A stretch of DNA of 64,000 bases from Occultella glacieicola (lineage in GTDB: Bacteria > Actinomycetota > Actinomycetes > Actinomycetales > Beutenbergiaceae). The notes under the pieces are model-generated. The model did no database searches and had not been told where the DNA came from. It saw only the letters and a list, made by a program, of their open reading frames with translations. The stretch covers positions 310,001-374,000 of the forward strand of contig NZ_SMNA01000001.1 in assembly GCF_004353825.1 (NCBI RefSeq), given 5' to 3'. The position numbers and the translations under genes are program-made. Below, piece after piece: positions 8,599 through 57,511 of this stretch. Each line of letters begins with the position of its first letter. The first letter of the stretch is position 1.

Positions 8599-9168
8599 GT
8601 GAAGCGGGCCATCGCCCGCCTGTACTGGCGGCTGAGCCGGTGGACGCTGAGGTCCGAACCGGTGGATCCGCGCGGCGCGGGCATCATGCTCGGCGCGCCG
8701 CACACCTCCAACTGGGACTTCGTGTTCATGCTCGCGATCGCCTGGAAGGACGGGTTCAAACTCCGGTTCCTCGGCAAGCACCAACTGTTCAAGAAGCCGT
8801 TCGGCACGATCATGCGCGCCCTCGGTGGGATCCCCGTGGACCGTCGCGACCCCTCCACGGTGGTCGCCGAGGTGGTCGAACGGGTCAACGCCGGCGAACG
8901 GTTCCACCTCGTCATCACCCCGGAGGGCACCCGCACCGGTGCGCCGTACTGGCGGTCCGGGTTCTACCGGATCGCCCGCGAGACCCACCTGCCGGTGACC
9001 CTCGGCTACGTCGACCGGAACACGATGACCACCGGCCTGGGCCCCACGATCGAACTGACCGGGGACGTCGTCGCGGACATGGACGTCATCCGCGCGTTCT
9101 ACCAGGGCAAGACCGGGGTCCGGCCGGCGAGGACGATCGAGCCGCGCCTGCGTGACGAGGAGGGCTGA
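8599..9168 (+). CDS. 1-acyl-sn-glycerol-3-phosphate acyltransferase family protein
   Basis: 189 residues from a GTG at 8599; GAGG lies 5 nt upstream. The acyltransferase block I motif appears as HTSNWD (the NHxxxxD-type catalytic His/Asp pair, in the variant seen in many actinobacterial homologues). Block III is EGTR, and IPVDRRD belongs to block II. The family transfers acyl chains from acyl-CoA or acyl-ACP to lysophosphatidate or related glycolipids at the membrane. At under 200 residues it is the short form with no N-terminal membrane segment. An ATG 11 nt earlier opens only a four-codon frame and is not the start. The gene is alone on its strand between the WYL regulator and the MerR gene. 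Confidence 0.9.
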   Translation: MKRAIARLYWRLSRWTLRSEPVDPRGAGIMLGAPHTSNWDFVFMLAIAWKDGFKLRFLGKHQLFKKPFGTIMRALGGIPVDRRDPSTVVAEVVERVNAGERFHLVITPEGTRTGAPYWRSGFYRIARETHLPVTLGYVDRNTMTTGLGPTIELTGDVVADMDVIRAFYQGKTGVRPARTIEPRLRDEEG

Positions 9169-9225
9169 AACGCTCGGTCCCGGCCGGGTCTGCAGCCCCG
9201 GCCAGGTCCTCAGCGGCTCAGCGGC

Positions 9226-10020
9226 CTACTCGCCGCTGAACGTGGCGCCCTCGGCGTAGGCGCGCATCGCGTCGCGCACGAACGTGGCGCCCTCGGTCCC
9301 GCCGTAGTTCGCCGCGAACCGGTCGTCCGCGACGTACATGTCGGCCAGCCCGAGGAAGTAGCCGCGGGACACCTCGTTCGAGGCGACCCCGAGCCACTCG
9401 TGGTGCCGGGCACTGATCGCCCGCACCCGCTCGTCGTCGGGGTCGAGCCCCTCGGCCGCGGCCCGGGCGTAGTCGGACCCGATGTCGGCCTGGCGCTGCT
9501 GGAAGTCCTTCTTCTCGGCGTCGCTCAGCGAGCGCCACCAGGCGTCGCCCTTGGCGTACGCGTCACGACCCCAACGTTGCTCGACCTCGTCCCGGTACTG
9601 GGTGTGGTCGAAACCGTCGAACATCTCCTCTGCCATGAGTTCTTCACCTCCTTCCCTTCTGATCACCGTGGTCCGAACGGACGCGATCTGTCGATCGAGC
9701 CGGTCGCGCTCCTGCTGGAGCAGGTCCAGGTGGGTCCGCAGCGCGGTGGCCTCGTCCTGCGAGCGGTCGAGGACCTCGGCGATGGTGCCGAGGCCGAGCC
9801 CCAGGTCGCGCAGCAACAGGATGCGTTGCAGGCGGACCAGGGCCTCGCCGTCGTAGTGGCGGTAGCCGTTCGCACCGATCCGTGACGGTGCCAGCAGCCC
9901 GATCTGGTCGTAGTGACGCAGCGTGCGACTGGTCGTCCCGGTGAGCCGGGTGATCTCGTGCATGGACCATTGCGCGTCGGACGACGCGCGGTGTTCGAGC
10001 ACTGTGTCGGTCCGGTTCAT
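9226..10020 (-). CDS. MerR-family regulator with C-terminal TipAS antibiotic-recognition domain
   Basis: 264 residues from an ATG at 10020 with AGGAGG upstream. Residues 20-90 are the MerR winged helix (MHEITRLTGTTSRTLRHYDQIGLL). A dimerising helix follows, and residues about 145-264 are a TipAS-like helical domain (QRWGRDAYAKGDAWWRSL, then RHHEWLG and FVRDAMRAYAEG). In Streptomyces TipA this domain binds thiopeptide antibiotics covalently and activates efflux genes; Mta and SkgA belong to the same group. The promoter has a MerR-type 19-bp spacer with an internal dyad, so autoregulation is likely. I see no adjacent efflux pump; the only neighbour across the promoter is an LLM oxidoreductase. 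Confidence 0.93.
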   Translation of the reverse strand: MNRTDTVLEHRASSDAQWSMHEITRLTGTTSRTLRHYDQIGLLAPSRIGANGYRHYDGEALVRLQRILLLRDLGLGLGTIAEVLDRSQDEATALRTHLDLLQQERDRLDRQIASVRTTVIRREGGEELMAEEMFDGFDHTQYRDEVEQRWGRDAYAKGDAWWRSLSDAEKKDFQQRQADIGSDYARAAAEGLDPDDERVRAISARHHEWLGVASNEVSRGYFLGLADMYVADDRFAANYGGTEGATFVRDAMRAYAEGATFSGE

Positions 10021-10048
10021 CGGGCCCTCCTGGGTTGTCGGTGAGACC

Positions 10049-10079
10049 AGTGTGGACGTTGACGTCGCGTCAAAGTCAA
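10049..10079 (-). promoter_or_regulatory. MerR-type promoter with 19-bp spacer and internal dyad
   Basis: Read on the minus strand, a -35 TTGACT (10079-10074) and a -10 CACACT (10054-10049) are separated by 19 bp. The spacer contains the dyad TTGACG-CGA-CGTCAA (10073-10059). The overlong spacer with a central dyad is the hallmark of MerR-activated promoters, and it drives the MerR-TipAS gene itself. Confidence 0.65.
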
Positions 10080-10146
10080 GGCGAGTTCCGGGGCGACGGG
10101 CGCCGGGTCGGGGAATGGGCTGCGCGGCGACCCGGTTGGCCACTGC

Positions 10147-10968
10147 ATGACTCTCGAACTCGGCAGATACGGCGTCTGGTTGGGCGCTCCCAAGGTGGAC
10201 GCGATCCTGGCCGGGGAGGTGGAGCGGCTCGGCTACGGGACGCTCTGGCTCGGTGGCATCAACGACTCCGAGCTCGCCGCCCCGGAGGTGGTGCTCGCGG
10301 GTACGTCGTCGATCACGGTGGCCACCGGCATCGTCAACATCTGGGCGACGGACGCCGAGCGCACGGCGCGGTCCTATGCGCGCCTCGCACACACCTTCGG
10401 AGACCGGTTCGTCCTCGGCGTGGGCATCGGGCACCCCGAGAACACGAGCGAGTACGCCTCCCCGTACGACACCACCGTGGGATACCTGGACACCCTGGCC
10501 GCCCAGGGCGTACCGACCGCCCGGACCGTACTGGCCGCCCTCGGGCCCCGGGTGCTCGGCCTGGCGAGGTCCCGCACCGCCGGCGCTCACCCCTACCTGA
10601 CCATCCCGGCGCATACCCGCAGGGCGCGGGAGATCCTTGGCGAGGGTCCCGTGCTCGCCCCGGAGCAGAAGGTGGTCCTCGAGACAGATCCGGAGCGTGC
10701 GCGGGCGGTCGCCCGCGAGTTCCTCGCCCCGTACCTTGGCTTGTCCAACTACCTCCGGATGCTGCGTGATGTCGGCTTCGCCGAGGCGGACCTGGCCGAC
10801 GGCGGAAGCGACGCGCTCGTCGACCAGCTCGTGCTGCACGGGGACGCGGTCACCGTGGCCGCCGGCCTGCGCGCGCACCGGGACGCGGGCGCCGACCACG
10901 TGGCTGTCCAGCCGCTGACCGATCCCGTGCGAACCCTCGGTGAGCTCGCGCCGCTGCTCGACCTCTGA
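10147..10968 (+). CDS. LLM-class flavin/F420-dependent oxidoreductase
   Basis: 273 residues from an ATG at 10147. Sequence landmarks are those of luciferase-like monooxygenases: YGVWLGAPKVDAILAGEVERLGYGTLWLGG at the first strand-helix (residues 7-36), ATGIVNIWATDAE in the second, and FVLGVGIGHPENTSEYASPYD in the third. The shortened barrel is typical of the actinobacterial TIGR03620-like subgroup, usually assigned to coenzyme F420. Substrate unknown. The gene is divergent from the MerR-TipAS gene, sharing a 126-bp spacer, so it could be a target of that regulator. It converges on the flavoprotein at 10972 with a 3-nt gap. Confidence 0.9.
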   Translation: MTLELGRYGVWLGAPKVDAILAGEVERLGYGTLWLGGINDSELAAPEVVLAGTSSITVATGIVNIWATDAERTARSYARLAHTFGDRFVLGVGIGHPENTSEYASPYDTTVGYLDTLAAQGVPTARTVLAALGPRVLGLARSRTAGAHPYLTIPAHTRRAREILGEGPVLAPEQKVVLETDPERARAVAREFLAPYLGLSNYLRMLRDVGFAEADLADGGSDALVDQLVLHGDAVTVAAGLRAHRDAGADHVAVQPLTDPVRTLGELAPLLDL

Positions 10969-10971
10969 CCC

Positions 10972-12048
10972 TCACGCGGTCAGCCGGGCGGGCTCCCGGG
11001 TGCGCAGCAGGTGCCGCACCACATAGCCCGCGTCGCGGCCCGCGCCGCCGATCAGCATCGACGCGAACGCGTACTGGAACGGCACCCCGAGGAAGTACAG
11101 CCCCGGGAACTCCGAGACGCCGCGTTCGCTGACCGGGAACCCGGCCTCGTCGGTGACCGGCAGGTCGATCCAGGAGTAGTCGTGGCGGTAACCGGTGCAC
11201 CAGATCACGCTCGCGACCTCCACGGCGGTCCCATCCGCTACCGGCAGTCCGTCGTCGACCCCGGTCACCCGTCCGACCCGCCGCACCCCGGCGGCCCTCA
11301 GGTCCTCCTCACGCACCCGCACCAACGGCGCACCGTGGCTACGCACCTCGCCGCGCATGCGCCGTCCGATCGGGGTGCGCATGGTGAGCAGGTTCCGGGT
11401 GGCCCAGAACCAGATCGGCAGGACCACGCGGGCTTCCGGCCCTTCGATCCGGAACGGCATCTGACCGTTCGCCCGGCCGGCGAGGGTCGTGGGGTGGGTG
11501 GCGGCCGTCTCGTGGGCGATGTCCGCTCCTGAGTGCGAGGCGCCGACCACCAGGACGTCCCCCGGCGGCAGGTCGGCCGGGCCCCGGTACGTGGTCGAGT
11601 GCCACTGCCGGATGCCCGGGTCCAGGTCGGCCGCGAAACCCGGCACGTACGGCTCCTGGTGCGGCCCGGTCGCGACGACGACGTTCGGTGCCTCGAACCG
11701 CTGCCCGCCCGCTTCCGCCACGAACGATCCGCCGACCGGGCGCAGCGACTCCACCCGCACACCGGAGCGCACCGGCAGGGCGAAGTGGTCGGCGTAGGTC
11801 CGCAGGTAGGCCGCGATCTCGTCGCGATCGGGGAAGTGCCGCGGGTCGCCGGGGCAGTCGAGCCCGGGCAGCGAGGAGTACCTGGCGGGGGAGAACAGGC
11901 GCAGGGAGTCCCAGTGCCCCTCCCAGTGCGCGCCGACATGGTCCTGCGCGTCGAGGATCACGAAGTCCACGCCGGACTGGGCGAGGTGGTAGCCGGCGGA
12001 CAGGCCGGACTGGCCGCCGCCGATGACGATCGTGTGGTGCGTACTCAT
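10972..12048 (-). CDS. FMO-like flavin-containing NAD(P)H oxidoreductase
   Basis: 358 residues. I chose the ATG at 12048 because GGAAGGAA lies just upstream; a longer reading would add an unsupported 19 residues. FAD-binding GGGQSGLSAGYHL begins at residue 9 and the second (NAD(P)H) Rossmann motif VVGASHSGADIA is at about 157-168. ATGPHQEPYVPGF is the ATG motif of FMO/BVMO-type enzymes, and WCTGYRHDYSWI closes the FAD domain. The family oxidises amines, sulfur compounds or ketones in the cytosol; substrate cannot be read from sequence. It is transcribed toward the LLM gene and lies just downstream of the first TPR-LuxR regulator on the same strand. Confidence 0.88.
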   Translation of the reverse strand: MSTHHTIVIGGGQSGLSAGYHLAQSGVDFVILDAQDHVGAHWEGHWDSLRLFSPARYSSLPGLDCPGDPRHFPDRDEIAAYLRTYADHFALPVRSGVRVESLRPVGGSFVAEAGGQRFEAPNVVVATGPHQEPYVPGFAADLDPGIRQWHSTTYRGPADLPPGDVLVVGASHSGADIAHETAATHPTTLAGRANGQMPFRIEGPEARVVLPIWFWATRNLLTMRTPIGRRMRGEVRSHGAPLVRVREEDLRAAGVRRVGRVTGVDDGLPVADGTAVEVASVIWCTGYRHDYSWIDLPVTDEAGFPVSERGVSEFPGLYFLGVPFQYAFASMLIGGAGRDAGYVVRHLLRTREPARLTA

Positions 12049-12171
12049 GGCCGTTCCTTCCGTGGGTCGTGTCTCGACGCTAGGAAGGTGGCGCGCTGGG
12101 CGCATCGACCGTTCTGAGCATTGCCCGACGGCGGAGCGTGGGTATTTCTGCCGGGCGCGGCCGGCGTCGGG

Positions 12172-45105: not shown

Positions 45106-45124
45106 TTAGGCAAGCCTTGCCTTG
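45106..45124. promoter_or_regulatory. DtxR/IdeR-type iron box 1 upstream of hmuT
   Basis: TTAGGCAAGCCTTGCCTTG matches 12 of 19 positions of the DtxR/IdeR consensus TTAGGTTAGGCTAACCTAA as I know it. It is 1 bp from a second box and 40 bp before the hmuT start, fitting iron-dependent repression. Confidence 0.8.
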
Positions 45125-45125
45125 T

Positions 45126-45144
45126 TTAGGTTAGCCTCTCCTGA
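45126..45144. promoter_or_regulatory. DtxR/IdeR-type iron box 2 upstream of hmuT
   Basis: TTAGGTTAGCCTCTCCTGA matches 15 of 19 consensus positions, including the whole left half. The tandem arrangement suggests two repressor dimer pairs and tight control. Confidence 0.85.
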
Positions 45145-45164
45145 GAACAGGGAGGTGGGTGCGC

Positions 45165-46304
45165 GTGGGTGCACGTCGATCGATGGTCTCCTCGGACGGC
45201 CGGCCGGGCCGCACCGGACGCAACCGCGGCGCCCGCCCGTTGGTCGTGCTGGCAGCGGTCCTCGCGCTCGTGGCCGCGTGTGCCGGGGGCGCCGGCGGCG
45301 CCGGTGTCGCGGCCGACGGCGGAGCGCGGCTGGCCGAGGTGGAGCCGCTCGCCGATCCCGGTGCGTACGTCGGGCCGAGTTCGGCAGTGCTCGCCGACTC
45401 CGCGATCGTGCCGATCGCGGACGAGCCGCAGCCGGTGCTGCCGGTCACGGTCACCGACGCCCAGGGGACCGCGGTCACGGTCACCGACGTCAGCCGGATC
45501 CTCGCGCTGGACATCTATGGGTCCACCTCGCGCACCGTGTTCGAACTCGGGCTCGGCGACAATCTCGTGGGCCGGGACACCTCGTCCTCCTACCCCGAGA
45601 TCGCCGACCTGCCGCTGGTGACCGCGAACGGCCACGAACTCAACGCCGAGGCGATCCTCGACCTCGCGCCGACGCTGATCATCACCGACACCAGCCTGGG
45701 GCCCTGGGACGTCGTCCTGCAGATGCGGGACGCCGGTATCCCCGTGGTGGTGGTCGACTCCCACCGCAGTCTCGAGGGCGTCGGACTGCTCATCCGGCAG
45801 GTGGCCGACGCCGTCGGGCTGCCTGCCGAGGGCGCCGAACTGGCCGAACGCACCGACGCCGACACCGAGGCCACGGTGGCGCGGATCGCCGCCGTGGCGC
45901 CACCCGAGGGTGAACGGCTGCGGATCGCGTTCCTGTACGTGCGGGGCCAGTCCGGGATCTACTACCTGTTCGGCACCGGTTCCGGGACCGACTCGCTGAT
46001 CGCCGCGCTGGGCGGTGTCGATGTCGCCACCGAGATCGGGTGGGACGGGATGCGACCGCTCACCGACGAGGGCCTGATCGCCGCGCAGCCGGACCTCGTC
46101 CTGGTCATGAGCAAAGGCCTGGAGTCGGTCGACGGTGTGGACGGGCTGCTGGAGGCCGTACCGGCGCTCGCCTACACCCCGGCCGGTGAGAACCGCCGCG
46201 TGGTGGACATGGACGACAGTCAGATCCTCTCCTTCGGGCCGAACACCGCCGACGTGCTCGATGCGCTCGCGGTCGCGATCTACGCACCCGAGGCCAACCC
46301 ATGA
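45165..46304 (+). CDS. hmuT: Haem ABC transporter substrate-binding lipoprotein
   Basis: 379 residues from the GTG at 45165, 9 nt after GGAGG; the GTG at 45159 is only 3 nt from it. The leader ends with the lipobox LVAAC (VVLAAVLALVAACAGG), so the mature protein is a lipoprotein on the outer face of the membrane. The periplasmic-binding-fold body has the HmuT-type motifs VSRILALDIYGSTSRTVFELGLG, ANGHELNAEAILDLAPTLII (a His in the position of the haem-ligand histidine) and YYLFGTGSGTDSLIAALGGVD. It should hand haem to the HmuU permease. It is the first gene of an iron-box-controlled operon. Confidence 0.93.
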   Translation: MGARRSMVSSDGRPGRTGRNRGARPLVVLAAVLALVAACAGGAGGAGVAADGGARLAEVEPLADPGAYVGPSSAVLADSAIVPIADEPQPVLPVTVTDAQGTAVTVTDVSRILALDIYGSTSRTVFELGLGDNLVGRDTSSSYPEIADLPLVTANGHELNAEAILDLAPTLIITDTSLGPWDVVLQMRDAGIPVVVVDSHRSLEGVGLLIRQVADAVGLPAEGAELAERTDADTEATVARIAAVAPPEGERLRIAFLYVRGQSGIYYLFGTGSGTDSLIAALGGVDVATEIGWDGMRPLTDEGLIAAQPDLVLVMSKGLESVDGVDGLLEAVPALAYTPAGENRRVVDMDDSQILSFGPNTADVLDALAVAIYAPEANP

Positions 46305-47542
46305 CCGCGTACGCACCCGTGCGGCTGGCCCGCGCGGCGCCGGGGGACGGCGACACGCTCGAGGTGATGGCCCCGGACCCCAACGGTTCGCCCGTGGGGA
46401 CCGACCCGGAACCTGGCGCCGGCGCGCGCCCGGCGGCCGAGTGGGCGGGCGCTGGTGCCGCGTCGTCGAACGCTCCGGCAGGTCGCGCCGCACCGCTCGC
46501 GCCGTCGCGGGCCGGACGCGTGGCGGTGCTGTTCGCCGCGCTCACCGTCGCGCTCGTGGCGCTGCTGATCCTGTCCGTGGGGCTCGGGCAGATGGGGATC
46601 ACCCCGGCCGAGGTGCTCGGCTCGATCCTGCGCCGACTCGGTCTGGTTGTGCTGCCCGGGCCCACCCACCCGAACGCGGAGTCCGCGCTCTGGGCGGTCC
46701 GGATGCCCCGGCTGCTCCTCGCCGCCCTGGTCGGGGCAGCGCTGGCCACCGGGGGCGTGCTCATGCAGGGCGTCTTCGGGAACCCGCTCGCCGAGCCCGG
46801 CGTGATCGGAGTGTCCTCCGGTGCGGCCGTGGGCGCCTGCACCGTGATCGTGCTCGGCCTGAACACCCTCGGCACCTGGACCGCTGTGGCCGCAGCCTTC
46901 ATCGGTGGGCTGATCACGACCGCGGTCGCCTACTCGACGGCGCGACAGGAGGGGCGCACCGAGGTGGTCACCCTGGTCCTCACCGGCGTGGCCGTCAACG
47001 CCGTGGCGGGGGCCATCATCGCGTTCCTGACCTTCCTCGGGGACACCTCGGCGCGCGAGGAGATCGTGTTCTGGCAGCTGGGCAGCCTGAACGGCACCCG
47101 GTGGGAGCACGTGCTGGTCGCGGCGCCGGTGATCGTGCTCGGGGTGGCCGCCGCCGGGCTGTTCGCGCGCCGGCTGGACCTGCTCGCCCTCGGGGAGCGG
47201 CCGGCCCGGCACCTCGGCGTCGACGTCGAGCGGCTCCGGATCGTCGTCATCGTCGGCGTCGCCGTCCTGACCAGTGCGGCCGTGGCGTTCTGCGGCGTGA
47301 TCGCCTTCGTCGGGCTCGTGGTGCCGCACCTGATCCGGATGCTCGTGGGCCCCGGACATGCCGCGCTGCTGCCCGCCAGCGCGCTCGGTGGCGCCGTGCT
47401 ACTGCTCGCAGCTGACCTCGCCGCCCGCACGGTGGTGCCCTACGCGGACCTACCGATCGGCATGCTCACCGCGCTCGTCGGCGGACCGTTCTTCTTCTAC
47501 CTGATCCGCCGGACCCGACGCGGCGCGGGGGGTTGGTCGTGA
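46301..47542 (+). CDS. hmuU: Haem ABC transporter permease (FecCD family)
   Basis: 413 residues; ATGA overlap with hmuT. An N-terminal extension of about 70 residues rich in Ala, Gly and Pro precedes about nine membrane helices of the FecCD type. Conserved points are the MPRLLLAALVGAALATGGVLMQGVFGNPLAEPGVIGVSSGA region (the family's first signature), FWQLGSLNGTRWEHV and the cytoplasmic coupling loop GVIAFVGLVVPHLIRMLVGP with its gate to the ATPase. It forms the haem channel of HmuTUV. The long tail before the first helix is unusual for the family and may be disordered. Confidence 0.94.
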   Translation: MTAYAPVRLARAAPGDGDTLEVMAPDPNGSPVGTDPEPGAGARPAAEWAGAGAASSNAPAGRAAPLAPSRAGRVAVLFAALTVALVALLILSVGLGQMGITPAEVLGSILRRLGLVVLPGPTHPNAESALWAVRMPRLLLAALVGAALATGGVLMQGVFGNPLAEPGVIGVSSGAAVGACTVIVLGLNTLGTWTAVAAAFIGGLITTAVAYSTARQEGRTEVVTLVLTGVAVNAVAGAIIAFLTFLGDTSAREEIVFWQLGSLNGTRWEHVLVAAPVIVLGVAAAGLFARRLDLLALGERPARHLGVDVERLRIVVIVGVAVLTSAAVAFCGVIAFVGLVVPHLIRMLVGPGHAALLPASALGGAVLLLAADLAARTVVPYADLPIGMLTALVGGPFFFYLIRRTRRGAGGWS

Positions 47543-48516
47543 GCGCGCCGGTGGTGCGGGACCCGGGCACGTCCGCCGGCCCGGCGGGGGCCGGGCGGCC
47601 CGATGTCGCTCTGCCGGACGCGGCCCCGGCGGCGCTGACCCGGCCCGATCCCGGGCTGCCCGACGCCGGTGCGAGGGCGCCGGCCGGCCCGTATCCGTGG
47701 GACGCACCGGAGCCCGGTGCCGCACTGATCGGCTGCGAAGGGCTCGGCCTGCGCCTTGGGGGGCGGCCGGTCCTGGTCGACGTGGACCTGCGGGTGCACG
47801 CCGGTGAGGTCGTGGCCCTGGTGGGGCCCAACGGCGCGGGCAAGTCCACCCTGCTCGCCGCACTCGCGGGCGACCTCGACCCCGAACAGGGCCGGGTGCT
47901 GCTCGGCGAGCACGACCTGCGCACGGTGCCGGTGGCCGAGCGTGCCCGGGCCCGGGCCGTGCAGGTCCAGGAGGCTCGGCTCTCGTTCGCGTTCCGCGCC
48001 GAGGAGGTGGTCCGGATGGGTCGGGCGCCGTGGCGGGGGACCCGGTTCGCCGACGATGACGACGCGGTGGTCGCGGATGCCCTGCGGACGAGCGAGGTCG
48101 AGCACCTGGCCGGGCGCCTGTTCCCGACCCTCTCCGGCGGTGAGAAGGCGCGCACGGCGTTCGCTCGCGCCGTCGGGCAGGAGACGGCCGTACTCATGCT
48201 CGACGAACCGACGGCCGCCCTGGACATCCGGCACCAGGAGCGCCTGCTCGCCGAGGTTCGCGAGCGGGCCGTCGCCGGGGTCGGGGTGGTGGTCGTGCTG
48301 CACGATCTCACGCTCGCCGCCGCGTACGCGGACCGGATCGTCCTGCTCGCCGACGGGCGGGTCCGCGCGGACGGGCCCCCGCGTGTGGTGCTCACCGCGG
48401 ACCTGCTGACCGAGGTCTATCGGTACCCGATCGCCGTCGTCGAGCACGGGGACTCCGGCGCGCTCGTGGTCCTGCCCCTGCGCGATCGGCGCAGCCCGCA
48501 GAAGGAGGAGTCATGA
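47539..48516 (+). CDS. hmuV: Haem ABC transporter ATP-binding protein
   Basis: 325 residues from a GTG that overlaps the hmuU stop. Walker A GPNGAGKS at 96-103, Q-loop within VQVQEARLSFAF, signature LSGGEKARTAFARA, Walker B VLMLDEPTAALD and the switch histidine VVLHDLTLAA are all intact, so the protein is an active ATPase. About 60 Pro/Ala/Gly-rich residues precede the domain, paralleling the extension of HmuU. It energises haem import through HmuU. The stop overlaps the next gene (ATGA). Confidence 0.95.
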   Translation: MSAPVVRDPGTSAGPAGAGRPDVALPDAAPAALTRPDPGLPDAGARAPAGPYPWDAPEPGAALIGCEGLGLRLGGRPVLVDVDLRVHAGEVVALVGPNGAGKSTLLAALAGDLDPEQGRVLLGEHDLRTVPVAERARARAVQVQEARLSFAFRAEEVVRMGRAPWRGTRFADDDDAVVADALRTSEVEHLAGRLFPTLSGGEKARTAFARAVGQETAVLMLDEPTAALDIRHQERLLAEVRERAVAGVGVVVVLHDLTLAAAYADRIVLLADGRVRADGPPRVVLTADLLTEVYRYPIAVVEHGDSGALVVLPLRDRRSPQKEES

Positions 48517-49802
48517 ACGCGACGAACGACCGGTGGCGCACCGTGCTCGCCGCCACCGCAGCGGCGGTCGCCCTGTGCGCGGCATCCGTGCTGACCGCCG
48601 CCCCGGCGGCCGCGGCCGGGAACGTCACCATCGACAGCGACCTCGGCGCCGCCCAGGTGTCGCTGACCGGGCCCACGACGGTCTCGGTGACCGGGTCCGG
48701 CTTCCAGTCCGTCCAGAACGGCTTCGGCGGCGTCTATGTGCTGTTCGGGTGGGTCTCGGACCCTGGTGGCGGGTCCTGGCGCCCCAGCGAGGGTGGACAC
48801 ACGGGTGACACCTACCTGTACGTGCCTGACACCGAGGCCATGGACAACGACGGCTACCAGCGGTTCGTCTCGTTCCCCGGCTCCAGCACGGATTCCGCCG
48901 CGAACGGGGGCCTGCTCGCCGCGGACGGCACCTTCTCGCTCTCGATGGTCATCCCGGGGCCAACCTTCACCGCCCAGGACCGCGACGGCAACGCCGCGAA
49001 CGTGGACTGCCGGGAGGTCGGTTGTGGCATCATCACCGTCGGCGCGCACGGCGTGGTCAATGCGAACAATGAGTCCTTCACGCCCGTGACGTTCATCGAC
49101 ACCTCGGGTTCACCGGGCACGAGCGGCACGGGCGGTACGGACGCGGCGACCGAACCGACGGCGGCCGGCGTCACCGACACCGAGACTCCGGTGGCGGGGG
49201 CCGACGAGACCACGGTCACCACCGGCCCGGCCACGATCGGAGTGGACCAGACGGCTGTGGTGCAGGGCCGGGTGGTCGGCTTCACCGGGCAGGGCTTCAC
49301 ACCGGGTGAGCAGGTCCTGGTGACCCTCGCCGGAGGTCTCGCCGCGGCCGGTCCCTATACCGCCGGCCAGTTCGGCGAGGTCGCCGGGACGCTGGCCCTG
49401 CCTACGGACATCCGGCTCGGCAGCCACGTGCTGCGGATGTCCGGCGCCGGGTCCGGGCAGGCGCCCGAGATCACGCTGACCGTCATGCCAGATCCGAACG
49501 CCGCGCCACCGCTCGCGCAGGGGCCGCCGGGACTGTCCTGGGCGTTCCTCGCGGTCGTGATCGTCGGGGCGGTACTCCTGGCGCTCATCCTGTCCTCCCT
49601 GATCGCGGCCCTGGTGCGGCGCCGACGCCGCAAGCGCGGTGCCGCCGCGGCGGCGCCGGTCGCCGGTTCGGGGAGCGAGGTGCCGATGGGCCCGGCGCCC
49701 GGGGCCGGTGGCACGAGCACCGCCGCGGTCAGCCGGACCGACGAGACTTCCGTCCTGGCGCCGGCGGGCCGGACCAACAGCCGCCGTGAGGTGGGCGTAT
49801 GA
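48513..49802 (+). CDS. Secreted, membrane-anchored surface protein of the haem operon
   Basis: 429 residues. Signal peptide (cleavage likely at AAAA-G near 34), then an Ig-like beta domain (about 35-200) with VSVTGSGFQSVQNGFGGVYVLFGWVSDP. It has two cysteines close together (VDCREVGCGIITVG) and the ending NANNESFTPVTFID. After a Thr/Glu-rich linker comes a second beta domain (about 235-320: VVQGRVVGFTGQGFTPGEQVLVTLAGG). A membrane helix at about 340-365 is followed by RRRRRKRG. There is no HtaA signature and no clear haem ligand. The 4-nt overlaps with hmuV and the next HtaA gene make a role in haem capture or transfer likely. Family not recognised. Confidence 0.85.
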   Translation: MNATNDRWRTVLAATAAAVALCAASVLTAAPAAAAGNVTIDSDLGAAQVSLTGPTTVSVTGSGFQSVQNGFGGVYVLFGWVSDPGGGSWRPSEGGHTGDTYLYVPDTEAMDNDGYQRFVSFPGSSTDSAANGGLLAADGTFSLSMVIPGPTFTAQDRDGNAANVDCREVGCGIITVGAHGVVNANNESFTPVTFIDTSGSPGTSGTGGTDAATEPTAAGVTDTETPVAGADETTVTTGPATIGVDQTAVVQGRVVGFTGQGFTPGEQVLVTLAGGLAAAGPYTAGQFGEVAGTLALPTDIRLGSHVLRMSGAGSGQAPEITLTVMPDPNAAPPLAQGPPGLSWAFLAVVIVGAVLLALILSSLIAALVRRRRRKRGAAAAAPVAGSGSEVPMGPAPGAGGTSTAAVSRTDETSVLAPAGRTNSRREVGV

Positions 49803-51073
49803 AGCGGCGCCTCCTCGCGGCCCTCGCGCTGACCGCCGCCCTCGCGTTCGCGGCCGCTCCCGCGCAGGCCGACGACGTCAACGTCACCGTGACCATCCCC
49901 GGTTCCGCGGGACCGGTCACGCTCAGCGACGCACAGCTGCGCTGGGGCCTGAACGGCGAGGTCGGCAGCGGTGCGTTCTTCGGCGGATGCAACTTCCTCT
50001 CGGCGGGCATCGCCGGGGACGCCGGGAGCTCCCACGTCTGGTCGAACGACAACCCGTACTACGCCTCGTCGGACGGGAACGTCACGATCGAGCGACCCGT
50101 CGGGTCCGAAGCCGGCGCCACCTACCGGGAGGCCACCTGGGACGAGCGCTGCCTGGACCCGGCCGGCAACCGGCTCGGCTCCACCGGGTTCAACTCCAGT
50201 GGCCAGCAGGTGGTCATCGACGGCGGCACCGGTGAGATGGACCCCGACGCGGGCACGGCGACCGTCCGCTGGGACGGCTCGTTCACCGTGGTCTTCTACG
50301 GGGGGATGACGTACTGGTGGGCATCCGACCCGGTCCTCACGGTGGTCGACGGCATCGGCACGCTGACGGCCACCGCGGGCGGGTTCGGGGCCTCGATGGA
50401 GAACACCTCGACCTGGGTCGCGCTGCCGGAGCGCCAGATCGTGCTCGCGGACCTCGGCGCCGTCGACCTGGAGGCCGAAAACGGGTTCGCCGGACTGCCC
50501 GCGTACACCGGGGTCACGGTGAGCCTGCCGGCGGGCGCCACCGAGCAGGTGCGCACGGGCGAGGCCTGGGGCTCGTTCCCCCAGTCCTTCATCGACTTCC
50601 AGTTCCGGACCGGGCAGGCTTCCTACTGGTACTCCTCCGGTGGCCTGCGCGATCGCGCCAAGCCGGCTACCGCCGTCTACGTCTCGTACGACGCGCAGCA
50701 CCCGGTCACCGTGCCGCCACCCACGCTCGTCGACCCGCCGACGGGCCTCGGCCCGGGCGCGGGAACCGGTGGCGGCACCGGACTCGGGAGCGGGACGGGC
50801 GGCGGCGGCGGCCGGACGCCGTCGGTCGTGGCGCCCACACCCCTCGCGCCGCTGGTGACCGATCCGGACCCGCCGTTCCTCCAGACCGCCGCGTTCGCGC
50901 CGGACACCCTGCTCCCGTCGGCGGGACTGATCCCGGACGGCGGGTATCTGCCCGGCATGGACCCGGCCGAGCAGCTCGCCTGGGCGCTGACCGGCGTGTT
51001 CGCCCTCTCCGGGGCCGCCCTGGTCGGCTTCCGCAAGGGCTGGCTCATCCTGCCGTGGCTGATCTCCCGCTGA
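49799..51073 (+). CDS. HtaA-domain haem-binding protein, membrane-anchored, cysteine-pair variant
   Basis: 424 residues; ATGA overlap with the preceding gene. Signal peptide 1-24. One HtaA-type beta domain (about 39-290) opens with LRWGLNGEVGSGAFFGGCNFLSAG and continues through WDGSFTVVFYGGMTYWWASDPVLTV and NTSTWVALPERQIVLADL to FIDFQFRTGQASYWYSSGG. Cys64 and Cys118 are positioned for a disulfide, and many Tyr/Trp residues could serve as haem ligands. A Gly/Pro/Thr linker, a C-terminal helix (about 395-412) and a short basic tail follow. HtaA proteins of corynebacteria bind haem and pass it to HmuT; this domain diverges from theirs. It is the last gene of the first iron-regulated unit. Confidence 0.85.
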   Translation: MKRRLLAALALTAALAFAAAPAQADDVNVTVTIPGSAGPVTLSDAQLRWGLNGEVGSGAFFGGCNFLSAGIAGDAGSSHVWSNDNPYYASSDGNVTIERPVGSEAGATYREATWDERCLDPAGNRLGSTGFNSSGQQVVIDGGTGEMDPDAGTATVRWDGSFTVVFYGGMTYWWASDPVLTVVDGIGTLTATAGGFGASMENTSTWVALPERQIVLADLGAVDLEAENGFAGLPAYTGVTVSLPAGATEQVRTGEAWGSFPQSFIDFQFRTGQASYWYSSGGLRDRAKPATAVYVSYDAQHPVTVPPPTLVDPPTGLGPGAGTGGGTGLGSGTGGGGGRTPSVVAPTPLAPLVTDPDPPFLQTAAFAPDTLLPSAGLIPDGGYLPGMDPAEQLAWALTGVFALSGAALVGFRKGWLILPWLISR

Positions 51074-51103
51074 GTCGGTAACCGCAACGCAAGGCGCACT
51101 AGA

Positions 51104-51122
51104 TTTAGCAAGGTCAACCTAA
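51104..51122. promoter_or_regulatory. DtxR/IdeR-type iron box upstream of the HtaA-WxL gene (left)
   Basis: TTTAGCAAGGTCAACCTAA matches 13 of 19 consensus positions, including the right half ACCTAA. It is 55 bp before the start at 51178. Confidence 0.78.
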
Positions 51123-51123
51123 C

Positions 51124-51142
51124 TAAGGTAAGGCTTGCCTGA
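51124..51142. promoter_or_regulatory. DtxR/IdeR-type iron box upstream of the HtaA-WxL gene (right)
   Basis: TAAGGTAAGGCTTGCCTGA matches 14 of 19 consensus positions and is 1 bp from the left box, the same tandem spacing as upstream of hmuT. Confidence 0.82.
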
Positions 51143-51177
51143 TTTAGTATCTTTCCCCACGATAGGAGAGGCATCAC

Positions 51178-52566
51178 ATGCACAGCACATCCGCGGCCGG
51201 GTCGTCCGGCCGTCGCGTCCTGGCCGGGCTGGGGGCCCTGGCGGTCGCACTTTCGGCGGGAGTCGCGATCGCGGCACCTGCCCAGGCCACAGCGACCGAG
51301 GTCGACGACGTCACCCTGCGCTGGGCCATGAGCGAGGAGGCCGGCGGTGGCGCCTATTTCGGCGGCTGCAACTTCCTCGTCGCCGGGTCTGCCGGCAACA
51401 CCGGCAGCAGTCGGGTCTGGACCGAGGCCGACGGCTTCTACCAGACCGAGGTCGGTAATGTCGCGATCGAGAAGCCGACCGCCGCCGGCGGCTGGGTCCA
51501 GCCCACCTGGGCCACGAAGTGCCAGAACGCCAGCGGCGCGGCCGTGGGCACCGGTGCCGGCAGCACCACCGGCGCCCAGGTGGTCCTGTCCGCAGGAACC
51601 GGCACCGTGGACACCGAGGCCGGCACCGCGGAGATCTCGTGGGACGGTGACTACACCGTTGTGTTCTACGGTGGCCTGACCTACTGGACCGTCAGCGACC
51701 CCACCCTCACGGTGGCCGCGGACGGGACCGGTACCCTCACCGGCACCGGGTCGGGCTGGGGAGCCTCCATGGAGGACCCGACCCTGTGGGAGGAAATCAC
51801 GCCGACGGTGATCGAGCTCGCGACGTTCACCGGGCTGAGCGTCGACGCCGACGGCTTCACCGCGACGCCGGAGTACCTCGGCATCGAGGTGGACCCGGGC
51901 GAGGGCGTCAGCCCGCAGGTCCGGACCGGCGCGAACTGGGGATCGTTCCCGCAGTCGTACGTGACCTTCCAGTATGCGACCGGGCAATCCTCCTACTGGT
52001 ACTCCTCGGGCGGTTCGGCCGACCCGAAGAAGCCGGCCGCGCCGGTCGCGGTGACCTGGACCGTGAATGACGAGGGCGAGCCCGGTGACGGCGACGTGCC
52101 GATCGAGGTGATCGTGCCCGAGGAGCCGGTCGAGCCCGAGCCAGGGGTGTTCTCCTGGACCATCCAGGGCAGCGGCGCCGTGAGCCTGGGCACGGCCACC
52201 GCGAACGCGAGCGGGTTCGCCGCCAACGGCAACCTGCACTCGATCGAGATCGAGGACACCCGTGAGGGTGGCCAGCAGTTCTCGATCTCCGGTGTGGCCG
52301 GCGCCTTCGGGTCCGGGTCGAACAGCTTCGCGGGTGGCGCGCTCGGCTGGACCCCGGCCCTGACCGGTGAGCTCGCGGGCGTGCAGCCCGGCGCCGCGGT
52401 GGCCGCCGGCAACCCGGGCCTGGGCAGCACCCAGACCCTGGTCTCCGGCTCGGCGGGTCACGCGCTCGGCACGGTCACGGTGGACGCGCAGCTCGCGCTG
52501 CTCGCCCCCGCGGACACCCCGGCCGGGGCGTACACCTCGACCCTGACCCTCACCGCGCTGGGCTGA
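51178..52566 (+). CDS. Secreted HtaA haem-binding domain fused to a WxL-like wall-binding domain
   Basis: 462 residues. Signal peptide to about 37. The HtaA-type domain (about 44-295) parallels the preceding gene: LRWAMSEEAGGGAYFGGCNFLVAG, Cys64 with Cys115 in WATKCQN, WDGDYTVVFYGGLTYWTVSDPTL and YVTFQYATGQSSYWYSSGG. A Glu/Pro hinge (300-322: VPEEPVEPEPG) leads to a C-terminal beta domain (323-462): FSWTIQGSGAVSLG, then QQFSISGVAGAFGSGSNSFAGGALGWTPAL and the end PAGAYTSTLTLTALG. That ending is typical of WxL-like domains, which bind peptidoglycan non-covalently. There is no LPxTG and no C-terminal membrane helix. Tandem iron boxes precede the gene. Confidence 0.83.
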   Translation: MHSTSAAGSSGRRVLAGLGALAVALSAGVAIAAPAQATATEVDDVTLRWAMSEEAGGGAYFGGCNFLVAGSAGNTGSSRVWTEADGFYQTEVGNVAIEKPTAAGGWVQPTWATKCQNASGAAVGTGAGSTTGAQVVLSAGTGTVDTEAGTAEISWDGDYTVVFYGGLTYWTVSDPTLTVAADGTGTLTGTGSGWGASMEDPTLWEEITPTVIELATFTGLSVDADGFTATPEYLGIEVDPGEGVSPQVRTGANWGSFPQSYVTFQYATGQSSYWYSSGGSADPKKPAAPVAVTWTVNDEGEPGDGDVPIEVIVPEEPVEPEPGVFSWTIQGSGAVSLGTATANASGFAANGNLHSIEIEDTREGGQQFSISGVAGAFGSGSNSFAGGALGWTPALTGELAGVQPGAAVAAGNPGLGSTQTLVSGSAGHALGTVTVDAQLALLAPADTPAGAYTSTLTLTALG

Positions 52567-52677
52567 GCAGCACCGGTCCAGCATCCTCCGAGCAGTACGG
52601 CGACCCCGGTCGGCGGAGCCCAGCGCTCCCTCGGCCGGGGTCACCGGCGGTCGCCCCCGCGGCCGGAAGGGAACGAC

Positions 52678-53712
52678 ATGGACAGCGCCACGGCACGTTC
52701 CGGCCAGGCGCCCCCGACGGCGCGCGTGCGACCCCCCGATGTCGCCACGGCCGCCGTGTCGGGCCGCCTTCGGCGGGTGCTGTGGGGCCTCGCGCTCGCA
52801 CTGCTGGTGGGCTTCAACGGTGGCGGTCAGGTACCGGCGGCCGCGGAGGTCGCAACCGATGAGCTGACCTGGAGCGTGGCTCCGGCGGACAACGACCGGG
52901 GCGCCGCCCGCCCCAACTTCACCTACGCGGTGAGCCCGGGCGATGTCATCGCCGACGCATTCGTGGTCACCAACCTCGGGACGGGCGAACTTCCGCTGAC
53001 CATCTACGCCGCGGACGGCTACACGACCCCGCAGGGACACCTCGACCTCCGACCGGCCGACGTGGTGCCGGCGGACCTCGGCTCCTGGGTCACCCTCGAC
53101 ACCAGTGAGATCACCCTCGGAGCGGGCGAGAGCGTCGAGGTGCCCTTCACCCTGAGGGTGCCGGTCGACGCAAGCCCCGGCGACCACCCCGGCGGCATCG
53201 TCGCGGCCTACACCTCCGCGGCTGACGGTGGCACCGTGCGGCTGGATCGACGCCTCGGCTCCAGGCTGCACGTGCGGGTCGCCGGCGAACAGAACGTGGG
53301 GCTCGAGATCTCGAACGTGCAGCTGAGCCAGGACATCGCGATCAATCCGGTCACGCCCGTGCCGACCGTCCTGACCTACACGGTCACGAACGTCGGCAAC
53401 GTGCGCACCCTGGCCCATGAGTCCGTCACGCTCGGCGGCCCTGGCGGCTCCACCGTGACGGGAACCGTCGAGGAGATCATGCCGGGTTCCACCGTGGAGC
53501 GATCGGTGGTCCTGAGCGGTTGGCCGGTGATCCGGGTCGGTGTGGACCTGGTCCTCACGCCCGAGGCGGTCGACGGCGCGATCGGCGCCGAGGTGGGCGC
53601 CACCGCCGGCGCCTGGGCCATTCCGTGGGGATGGCTGGCGGTGCTGCTCCTGATCGTCGCCGGGGCGGTGGTGATCGGGGTGCGTCGCGGCCGTCGCGAG
53701 AGGACGCGCTGA
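52678..53712 (+). CDS. DUF916-type (WxL peptidoglycan-binding domain) membrane protein
   Basis: 344 residues from an ATG at 52678. Membrane/signal segment at about 33-50, then a DUF916/WxL peptidoglycan-binding domain (about 58-180): LTWSVAPADNDRGAARPNFTYAVSPG, then ADAFVVTNLGTGELPLTIYAADGYTT and ESVEVPFTLRVPVDASPGDHPGGIVAAY. A second beta domain (about 190-300) is followed by a C-terminal helix at about 313-333 and RRGRRERTR. In Firmicutes such proteins are encoded beside WxL proteins and anchor them. Here the partner is the HtaA-WxL protein 111 bp upstream, on the same iron-controlled transcript. The gene converges on the Ogt gene with a 13-bp gap. Confidence 0.86.
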   Translation: MDSATARSGQAPPTARVRPPDVATAAVSGRLRRVLWGLALALLVGFNGGGQVPAAAEVATDELTWSVAPADNDRGAARPNFTYAVSPGDVIADAFVVTNLGTGELPLTIYAADGYTTPQGHLDLRPADVVPADLGSWVTLDTSEITLGAGESVEVPFTLRVPVDASPGDHPGGIVAAYTSAADGGTVRLDRRLGSRLHVRVAGEQNVGLEISNVQLSQDIAINPVTPVPTVLTYTVTNVGNVRTLAHESVTLGGPGGSTVTGTVEEIMPGSTVERSVVLSGWPVIRVGVDLVLTPEAVDGAIGAEVGATAGAWAIPWGWLAVLLLIVAGAVVIGVRRGRRERTR

Positions 53713-55503: not shown

Positions 55504-57012
55504 TCAGACCAGCTCGCTGATCCGGTCGTCGTCGCCGAGCGCGCCGGCCTTGTGGGCCTCGATCGCGCGCCGGACACCCTGGCCGTAGGCCGGGTCGGCC
55601 TGCGCGCAGTGGTTGAGGTGCCGCTCGATGGTGGCCTCGGAGGCGCCGTCGATCGCACGGGCCGTGTTCGCGAACAGGGCCGACTGCTGTTCCGGGCTCA
55701 TCTGCCGGAACAGGTCGCCCGGCTGCTCGAAGTAGTTGACGTCGTCCTCGCGGTACTCGTATCGGTCCGCCGCACCCTCCAGCGCGAGCGCCGGCTCGTG
55801 GTAGGCGGGCTGGTCGGAGAACCGGTCGTAGCTGTTCGGGGTGTACCCGGGCACGCCGCCCTGGTTGCCGTCCACGCGCATCTGCCCGTCGCGGTGGTAG
55901 GTGTTCACGTTCGTGGCCCCGCGCGGGTAGTTCACCGGGATCTGGTGGTGGTTCACGCCCACCCGGTAGCGCGCGGCGTCACCGTAGGAGAACAGCCGGC
56001 CCTGCAGCATCCGGTCCGGGGACGGGCCCACGCCGGGCACCATGTTGCTGGGTGTGAACGCGGCCTGCTCGACGTCGGCGAAGTAGTTCTCCGGGTTCCG
56101 GTTGAGCTCGAACTCGCCGACCTCGATCAGCGGGTAGTCCTTCTTCGACCAGACCTTGGTCAGGTCGAAGGGGTGGAACCGGTAGTCCTTGGCGTCCGCC
56201 TCGGGCATGACCTGGATGAAGAACGTCCACTTCGGGAACTCGTCGCGCTCGATCGCGTCGAACAGGTCCCGCTGGGCGGACTCCCGGTCGCCGGCCACGA
56301 GCTTGGCGGCCTCGGCGTCGGTGAGGTTCTTGATGCCCTGCTGGGTGCGGAAGTGGAACTTGACCCAGAACCGCTCGTCCTCGGCGTTGATGAAGGAGTA
56401 CGTGTGGGAGCCGAACCCGTGCATGTGCCGGTACCCGTCCGGGATGCCGCGGTCGGACATCACGATGGTGACCTGGTGCAGCGCCTCGGGCAGGTTCGTC
56501 CAGAAGTCCCAGTTGTTCTCGGGGGAGCGCAGGTTCGTGCGGGGGTCACGCTTGACGGCCCGGTTCAGTGCCGGGAAGTGGTGCGGGTCGCGGTGGAAGA
56601 ACACCGGGGTGTTGTTCCCGACCACGTCCCAGTTGCCCTCCTCGGTGTAGAAGCGCAGCGCGAAGCCACGGATGTCCCGCTCGGCGTCAGCCGCGCCTCG
56701 CTCCCCGGCGACGGTGGAGAACCGGGCGAACATCTCGGTCTGCTTGCCGACCTCGGAGAACAGCGCCGCCCTGGAGTACCGGGTGATGTCCCGCGTGACC
56801 GTGAACGTGCCGAACGCGCCTGACCCCTTGGCGTGCATGCGGCGCTCCGGGATGACCTCCCGGCTGAAGTGCGCCAGCTTCTCGAGGAACCAGACGTCCT
56901 GCAGCAGCATCGGGCCGCGCGGGCCGGCGGTCACGGCGTTCTCGTTGTCCGGGACGGGGGCACCCGCCGCGGTGGTCAGGGGGCGGGTGTTGTCGTGGTA
57001 CTGCTCTGGCAT
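55504..57012 (-). CDS. katA: Monofunctional haem catalase
   Basis: 502 residues from an ATG at 57012 with AAGGAG upstream. Catalytic His60 lies in [16 protein letters not shown]. The distal Asn is in [13 protein letters not shown], and the haem-ligating tyrosine region is [23 protein letters not shown]. Length of about 500 with no C-terminal flavodoxin-like domain places it in the small-subunit clade that binds NADPH. It decomposes H2O2 to water and oxygen in the cytosol. The fur-type gene 13 bp upstream on the same strand is the likely peroxide-sensing regulator and is probably co-transcribed. It converges on the ankyrin gene. Confidence 0.97.
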
Positions 57013-57025
57013 TCCTGGGTGCTCC

Positions 57026-57511
57026 TTAGTGGTGGTGGGACATCTCTGGGCGCGGCGGCGCCGGGTCGGCGGGTCCGGCCGCACCGCCGGACAGGCAGGC
57101 GGGGCAGGTGCCCCAGTAGGTGATCTCGACGGCGTCGATGACGAAGCCGGGCGCCTGCGGTTCGGCGAGCGGGATCGCGTTCGGTGCGACGTGGACGTCG
57201 GTGAGCGAGCCGCAGCGCCGGCAGACCGCGTGCTGGTGGTCGTCCCAGCGCAGGCCCTCGTACCGCGCCGACGAGTTCGGCAGGTCGATCCGTCGGGCCA
57301 GGTCCGCGTCCACGAGCGTCTTGAGGACGTCGTAGACGGCCTGCGTCGAGCAACTGCCGATCCGCTCCCGGACCAGCCCGATGATCGTCGCCGCGTCCGA
57401 GTGCGGATGCTCGTGGATCACGGTCAGGACCGTCACCCGCGGGCGCGTCACGCGCAGCGCCGCCCCCCGCAGGAGCTCTTCGGCCTCGGACTCGATCACC
57501 CCTGCAGTCAA
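57026..57511 (-). CDS. furA: Fur-family regulator (FurA/PerR-like)
   Basis: 161 residues from a TTG at 57511; a GTG at 57499 is an alternative start and would remove four residues. The winged helix (about 15-85) contains [25 protein letters not shown] and [31 protein letters not shown]. The metal-site strand [19 protein letters not shown] and the second cysteine pair CPACL form a structural Zn site. The residue set resembles mycobacterial FurA, which represses catalase-peroxidase. It lies 13 bp before katA, so it should repress both and respond to peroxide through iron-dependent oxidation. The C-terminus ends in SHHH. Confidence 0.92.

Follow-up and report, generated by a model that had tools for sequence, protein, structure and literature searches.

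How haem passes across the thick wall of Gram-positive bacteria by way of CR domains is an open question, and the authors of a study of these domains ask whether they pass haem rapidly among themselves (PMC12494546). A haem-uptake locus of Occultella glacieicola bears on this question. It lies within a 64-kb window (the whole stretch of 64,000 nucleotides that was analysed) of the 5.34-Mb genome, and its genes are all located on the + strand in the order hmuTUV, P0004, P0003, a pair of iron-box-like sites, P0001 and P0002 (Table 1). P0001 is a fusion of an HtaA-like and a WxL-like domain, and its neighbour P0002 is a homologue of WxLIP, the DUF916 partner class of WxL proteins. On balance we consider it probable that P0001 is a secreted HtaA-type haem-receptor module, anchored non-covalently via its WxL-like tail on the tail-anchored P0002 by strand donation, controlled by iron and feeding P0003 and thereby HmuTUV. 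The fusion with its hinge and without a C-terminal membrane helix had been recognized by an earlier sequence-only reading of this DNA, and family-level matches, predicted folds and hydropathy agree with it. The range 49799-53712 given at that time for the receptor contains the fusion and its partner, but it also spans the separate gene P0003 (49799-51073).

The pairing of the two genes was investigated in 70 loci of up to 9 kb on each side, which stem from a scan of named genomes and were chosen by HtaA-like peptide patterns, so that they do not represent a random sample. A WxL-like domain is found in 41 open reading frames (ORFs) of these loci; in 40 of them it is joined to a divergent HtaA-like domain, whereas the HtaA domain of the remaining one (L109) is canonical. 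A WxLIP gene is located next to 38 of the 41 (37 identified by script, L113 by eye), and WxLIP is present in none of the 29 loci without a WxL-like domain. Two of the unpaired ORFs, L087 and L091, are situated at contig ends. The third, L071 from Pseudoclavibacter helvolus (8758-10527), has an altered C-terminal end, and neither a WxLIP nor an hmuTUV homologue was found at its locus. The sequence-only reading had proposed to look for the same fusion elsewhere, and the arrangement indeed recurs in many actinobacterial genera including Occultella, Arthrobacter, Cellulomonas, Brachybacterium, Pseudoclavibacter, Luteimicrobium, Herbiconiux, Labedella, Microbacterium and Streptomyces. The nearest named relative at the locus is Occultella aeris (L057), whose counterpart is 94% identical to P0001. 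Within the O. glacieicola genome the WxL-like domain occurs in one place, namely P0001 (profile search; 101 of 101 candidates scored), and PF06030 in one, namely P0002, and the two genes adjoin.

Two broader draws of genomes complement these loci. In the draw from the order (248 genomes, up to six candidates scored per genome) at least 56 genomes have a match to P0001. From these matches 84 WxL-like tails, i.e., P0001 matches that reach the C-terminal domain, were picked by eye, and PF06030 follows 0.18-0.6 kb downstream on the same strand for 55 of them. The tails of G065, G121, G135 and G177 come from genomes without a PF04213 match, thus indicating that the WxL-WxLIP pair occurs beyond haem proteins as well. 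In the draw from the phylum (396 genomes, three candidates scored in most genomes listed) 23 genomes have a match, and the HtaA part and the tail were seen together in the own genome alone among the candidates scored; the fusion accordingly looks patchy. A search of plasmids with P0001 as query returned zero matches.

The identity of the partner is documented by sequence and predicted structure. P0002 scores 26.3 bits against PF06030 in hmmscan, below the cut-off of 27.3, and 28.3 bits, above it, in the genome search; all 33 members of the P0002 alignment match PF06030 at E<=0.05 (best 4.8e-12). The top three PDB fold matches of the P0002 model (pLDDT, the predicted model confidence, 87.1) are WxLIP structures of Enterococcus faecium, among them 9i1y (E 1.6e-10) and 9i25 (E 6.7e-10), the latter titled 'bound to long WxL'. 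The alignments with the WxLIP structures cover 262-269 columns with TM-scores by target length of 0.59-0.66, a profile match to solved WxLIP has an E-value of 0.0014, and the next fold matches are pilus chaperones such as CfaA. DUF3324, the second WxLIP domain, has no Pfam match in P0002 or its family, though the fold alignment equals the two-domain structures in length. The predicted C-terminal membrane helix reaches a hydropathy peak of 2.5. The previous description of the next gene as a DUF916-type membrane protein is supported.

The WxL-like domain runs to the C-terminus of P0001, whose N-terminal hydrophobic segment is assigned by hydropathy alone, and the hinge in front of it is modelled with pLDDT <50. 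The WxL profile PF13731 is matched at E<=0.05 by 11 of the 58 members of the P0001 family alignment (best 8.2e-6). A profile of the WxL-like family matches that of actinobacterial proteins with 99.3%, and three of the latter (L042, L043, L044) exceed the WxL cut-off, as do candidates of five of the 248 order genomes; in G083, one of the five, the match is short and restricted to profile positions 9-54. The sequence-only reading had made its WxL assignment depend on a significant match of residues 323-462; the single sequence yields none, and this outcome is overturned at the family level. An Asp at position -8 (D360, 46 of 46 aligned members) and an Arg at -6 (R362, 45 of 46) relative to the first motif, which have been described as structural (PMC9772566), are conserved; the spacing to the motif is exact in P0001 and up to three residues longer in some members. 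Of the 46 members, 40 have the first Trp, which is replaced by Phe in Occultella. Pilin-type subunits (6k73_D, 6fqa_D, 2wmp_B) match the P0001 model weakly (E 1.6e-3 to 1.9e-2), the matched part of P0001 not being stated.

The absence of a membrane tail distinguishes the fusions from their relatives. When hydropathy was scored over the last 60 residues, with ORFs running off the contig excluded, a membrane tail was scored for one of 40 fusions; among HtaA-only ORFs the count was 56 of 86 and among WxLIP ORFs 35 of 38. The one fusion is L074, in which a strand region was probably miscalled as a membrane tail. A C-terminal membrane segment is absent from P0001 itself and present in P0002. The WxL-like tail thus appears to occupy the place of the membrane tail of most sister proteins.

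Two answers are considered for what the tail binds to. Hassan et al. predicted a WxLIP hairpin that completes the WxL sandwich (PMC10599100), and by analogy the long hairpin of P0002 (residues 168-201) may lend a strand to the WxL-like domain of P0001. Alternatively, the WxL-like domain could bind peptidoglycan directly and P0002 would merely stabilize a receptor on the wall surface. Peptidoglycan binding has been ascribed to published WxL proteins (PMC10599100) and the first domain of the partner is named for this function, but the WxL-like domain of P0001 is reduced to about 140 amino acids and has lost both Trp residues, a second WxL protein is missing in the genome, and P0002 has a membrane helix of its own; this alternative is therefore unlikely. 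Because P0002 is tail-anchored we prefer docking on the membrane side. The putative docking on a membrane-held partner is the better supported of the two scenarios, and any contact with the wall is hypothetical. Of the previous proposal, the separate DUF916 partner stands, whereas 'docked to the wall' is not favoured given the membrane helix and WxLIP-type fold of P0002.

Another explanation is that P0001 is a releasable haemophore that diffuses out, collects haem and docks again on P0002 as a landing site. ChtA and HtaA have also been found secreted (PMC12494546). The flexible hinge and the lack of an own membrane tail in 39 of 40 fusions (hydropathy) would suit such a function. The generally long life of donor-strand contacts speaks against rapid exchange, and we assign this explanation a low probability compared with stable docking on P0002.

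With the single sequence of P0001, searches of Pfam, NCBIfam and the PDB sequences yielded nothing informative, nor did a PDB search with the fusion profile, and the HtaA-like domain was examined by family-level scans and fold searches instead. The family alignment comprises 58 members, of which 51 carry the HtaA-like and 46 the WxL-like domain; alignment A2 is without L069, a near-copy of L068, and without L109, L113 and L118, whose HtaA part is canonical or very divergent. L006 (G119, 1501-2874), a fusion gene with one in-frame TAG, was used in no alignment. PF04213 is matched at E<=0.05 by 22 of the 58 members including P0001 (best 1.2e-7), and the HtaA parts of the fusions in G188 and G098 exceed the cut-off. 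In a Foldseek search with the AlphaFold model of P0001 (pLDDT 91.9, 58 sequences) ranks 1-4 are chains of HtaA CR2 of Corynebacterium diphtheriae (8smu) and of HbpA (9bch), with E-values of 7e-5 to 4e-4 and a probability of 1.00. HtaA of C. glutamicum (6jsc, 6jsa) appears at lower ranks, interspersed with low-probability viral envelope matches. With modest E-values and TM-scores by target length of up to 0.66, the predicted beta-sandwich leads us to regard the domain as a divergent member of the CR fold.

In solved CR domains, haemin is gripped by an axial Tyr of helix 1, a helper His of the beta6-beta7 loop (Tyr in ChtA) and a propionate-binding Tyr (PMC12494546). Tyr164 of P0001 is kept in all 51 HtaA-like domains and aligns with the canonical helper His (hhalign), the position where ChtA also has a Tyr. 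Y275, a candidate for the Tyr at the propionate, is located in a motif that by eye resembles FYxAGxxLDP and is Tyr in 44, Phe in six and Leu in one of the 51 domains. Cys 64 and Cys 115 are kept in 51 of 51 and likely form a disulfide. Haem binding by the HtaA-like domain of P0001 is plausible.

In L109 (Oerskovia flava, 10379-12079) the slot of the divergent HtaA-like domain is filled by a canonical HtaA domain that scores 62.4 bits against a cut-off of 24 and has the motif W-G-F-K-E-S-F-R-R-Y, followed by a middle domain that by eye is of the P0004 type, by the WxL-like tail and by a WxLIP gene above the cut-off (36.7 bits). The same succession of canonical HtaA, P0004-type domain, WxL-like tail and WxLIP is found in G130, G158, G027 and G008 (L129-L132). 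As judged from these sequences, the canonical HtaA domain in the docked slot of five genomes is the best evidence for a haem slot. It also bears on the idea that the ligand of the divergent domain is not haem itself but a haem source, in the manner of the haemoglobin receptor HbpA, or some other iron ligand. In favour of this idea, HbpA ranks high among the fold matches, the axial-Tyr candidate is Phe in 22 of 51 domains and both Cys are invariant; however, Tyr164 aligns with the helper His, the O. glacieicola genome offers zero PF04213 matches at E<=0.001 (genome profile search) that could perform the haem step instead, and the same slot accommodates the canonical domains. A ligand other than haem is thus rather improbable for P0001.

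The ectodomain of P0004 shares homology with a domain in the middle of longer HtaA-WxL fusions, e.g., L076 (186-1892; profile match 98.9%). Among the loci with a WxL-like domain, 35 of 41 contain a P0004 homologue, and among those lacking it 25 of 29; the P0004-type ectodomain is probably an undescribed part of the haem system. A plasmid of Cellulosimicrobium protaetiae (L128, 7118-15624) harbors a short hypothetical gene, then a DUF916 protein gene, and then genes for LamG-type and family-43 glycosidase proteins. This gene order suggests that the same docking pair may serve other cargo.

Regulation by iron was assessed with the 19-base DtxR/IdeR consensus. The two pairs of sites at the locus represent four of the five sites with up to six mismatches in the 64 kb, and 20 simulated 64-kb sequences contained zero sites with up to five mismatches and 0.15 per sequence with six. 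The site scan and the Pfam and NCBIfam matches hence substantiate the iron-box-like sites and the hmuTUV neighbourhood already noted from the sequence. The following course of events is proposed: the second polypeptide, P0002, would serve as anchor for the secreted P0001, whose WxL-like tail would dock non-covalently on the ectodomain of P0002, probably in the donor-strand style by accepting a beta-strand of the long hairpin. The flexible hinge would hold the HtaA-like domain outside the membrane. Under iron limitation, mediated by the DtxR-type boxes, P0001 would capture haem, which would then be handed over to the membrane-tailed P0003 and on to HmuT and HmuUV. The analysis establishes which genes are present, their order and co-occurrence, the homologies of the domains and their predicted folds, from which we infer the physical complex, the donated strand, the control by iron, the binding of haem by P0001 and the sequence of transfer steps.

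Several results weigh against this proposal. Regarding the haem domain, full-length P0001 has zero Pfam matches at E<=1, including HtaA (PF04213), and its mature part scores 16 bits against PF04213, under the cut-off of 24. The match between the divergent and the canonical HtaA profile is moderate (85.7% probability over 95 columns, with the middle part alone aligned; hhalign). The axial-Tyr candidate Y60, whose register is not fixed, is Tyr in 29 and Phe in 22 of 51 domains; due to this lack of strict conservation haem binding of P0001 is not assured. Regarding the tail, the single-sequence Pfam search gave zero matches of P0001, residues 323-462 included, to PF13731, and PDB sequence searches with the WxL-like and WxL profiles matched no WxL chain. 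Both WxL tryptophans are missing in P0001 (F368-S-I, L458-T-A), and the position of the second is occupied by Leu, Ile, Val or Phe throughout the 46 aligned members. The tail of P0001 consequently resembles a WxL domain in partner, position and profile, yet its sequence fails the defining dual-Trp test. A second, small WxL protein was not detected in the genome with the WxL-like profile (101 of 101 candidates), unlike in the published clusters (PMC10599100).

Other adverse points emerge from the comparison of loci. Homologues of hmuTUV are as common in loci without (24 of 29) as in loci with a WxL-like domain (32 of 41), and their presence therefore does not establish a specific tie between WxL and haem. 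In the order draw, 29 of the 84 WxL-like tails lack a close-downstream PF06030 at E<=0.01. The correlation of distance matrices from 29 loci is highest for WxL-WxLIP (0.85, partial 0.53), but HtaA-WxLIP (0.80, partial 0.46) and HmuU-WxLIP (0.78, partial 0.36) are nearly as high, and the mirror-tree test thus does not single out the docking domain. Sites with up to five mismatches precede 13 of 40 fusion genes, so that the iron boxes provide weak support at the family level. The view that P0001 ends in an Ig-like domain unrelated to WxL, for which the unmatched single-sequence WxL search could be cited, is highly improbable in the light of the PF13731 and profile matches of the family, and a coincidental WxLIP neighbourhood is rejected on account of the co-occurrence (38 of 41 versus 0 of 29).

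The proposed receptor combines elements of known systems. With HtaA, ChtA and HtaB of Corynebacterium it shares the CR-like fold, the hmuTUV neighbourhood, iron-box-like sites and a second, membrane-tailed HtaA-like protein (P0003); it differs in that P0001 is without an own membrane helix and has a WxL-like tail with a separate WxLIP partner. Compared to the corynebacterial CR, the domain of P0001 is longer, contains two invariant Cys residues, has Tyr164 at the helper-His position and lacks a strictly conserved axial-Tyr candidate. The statement of the sequence-only reading that corynebacterial HtaA proteins are held by membrane helices is to be complemented by other HtaA anchors already known, such as the LPXTG protein of Streptomyces albidoflavus (PMC10924467). 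LPXTG- or tail-anchored HtaA proteins of Streptomyces exemplify the variety of HtaA anchors in actinobacteria (PMC10924467), but those anchors reside in the same chain, whereas that of P0001 would be the partner protein. The haemoglobin receptor HbpA (9bch, by title) matches the fold of the P0001 model with an E-value of 2.2e-4; at 198 residues, the chain in question is accordingly without an added WxL-like domain as in P0001.

The WxL-WxLIP clusters of Lactobacillales and Bacillales (9i1y and 9i25, by title) have in common with our locus a secreted, cargo-bearing protein that ends in a WxL-like domain, an adjoining DUF916 protein with a C-terminal membrane helix, and the Asp and Arg in front of the first motif. 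P0001 differs from them by its occurrence in high-GC actinobacteria, the haem-receptor cargo, the hmuTUV neighbourhood, the presence of one WxL protein and the loss of the tryptophans. WxL has been described as almost confined to these two orders (PMC10599100). The DUF916 label is already found on actinobacterial records, and the novelty hence consists in the haem fusion and its recurrence rather than in the domains. Our literature search revealed no paper that combines WxL and HtaA, and broader searches were too large to prove absence.

A more far-reaching scenario, which we put forward tentatively as a possibility, is an HtaA-WxL receptor that is detachable, carries CR-type cargo open to exchange, is strand-held by a membrane-tethered WxLIP at an iron-regulated HmuTUV locus and perhaps cycles between docked receptor and free haemophore. 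If true, WxL-WxLIP would represent a general docking joint of Gram-positive surfaces and not an adhesion device of gut commensals. Two-part docking has so far been described mainly for surface proteins of gut bacteria, and the present locus takes WxL-WxLIP out of the setting of gut adhesion. An insertion of the WxLIP helix into host membranes, as has been proposed (PMC10599100), fits badly with the presence of such a protein next to the haem importer of Occultella, Arthrobacter and Cellulomonas. Since receptor and anchor are encoded on separate chains that can be genetically removed or swapped, the question of a CR relay becomes testable in non-pathogenic actinobacteria.

Table 1. Features of the haem-uptake locus of O. 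glacieicola (positions in the 64-kb window)
Feature	Position	Strand or location	Evidence and remarks
Two iron-box-like sites	45106..45144	upstream of hmuT	6 (45106) and 3 (45126) mismatches to consensus
HmuT-like haem substrate-binding protein	45159..46304	+	PF01497, 111 bits
HmuU-like permease	46301..47542	+	PF01032, 310 bits
HmuV-like ATPase	47533..48516	+	NF010068 haem ABC ATPase, 289 bits, cut-off 261
P0004, membrane-anchored protein, no significant Pfam family	48513..49802	+	hydropathy, Pfam search
P0003, HtaA-like domain and hydrophobic C-terminal membrane tail	49799..51073	+	homology, hydropathy
Two iron-box-like sites	51104..51142	between P0003 and P0001	6 (51104) and 5 (51124) mismatches
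P0001, HtaA-like + WxL-like fusion, 462 aa	51178..52566	+	N-terminal signal-like segment, no C-terminal membrane helix
HtaA-like (CR-fold) domain of P0001, residues 42-296	51301..52065	+	
Glu/Pro-rich hinge of P0001, residues 300-320	52075..52137	+	low model confidence
WxL-like C-terminal domain of P0001, residues 323-462	52144..52563	+	F368/L458 at Trp positions; D360, R362 kept
P0002, WxLIP (DUF916) homologue, 344 aa	52678..53712	+	proposed docking partner
Long conserved hairpin of P0002, residues 168-201, lower-confidence tip	53179..53280	+	candidate strand lent to WxL; putative role after PMC10599100
C-terminal membrane helix of P0002, residues 317-343, basic tail	53626..53706	+	model, hydropathy

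PF13731 (WxL) has zero matches in the own genome. One haem oxygenase and two DtxR-family regulators are encoded elsewhere in the genome. A few kb from the haem locus, a Fur-family regulator (PF01475) is located beside a gene which, by its sequence, we take to be catalase-like; the two genes occupy positions 55504-57084 and 57026-57511 on the minus strand.

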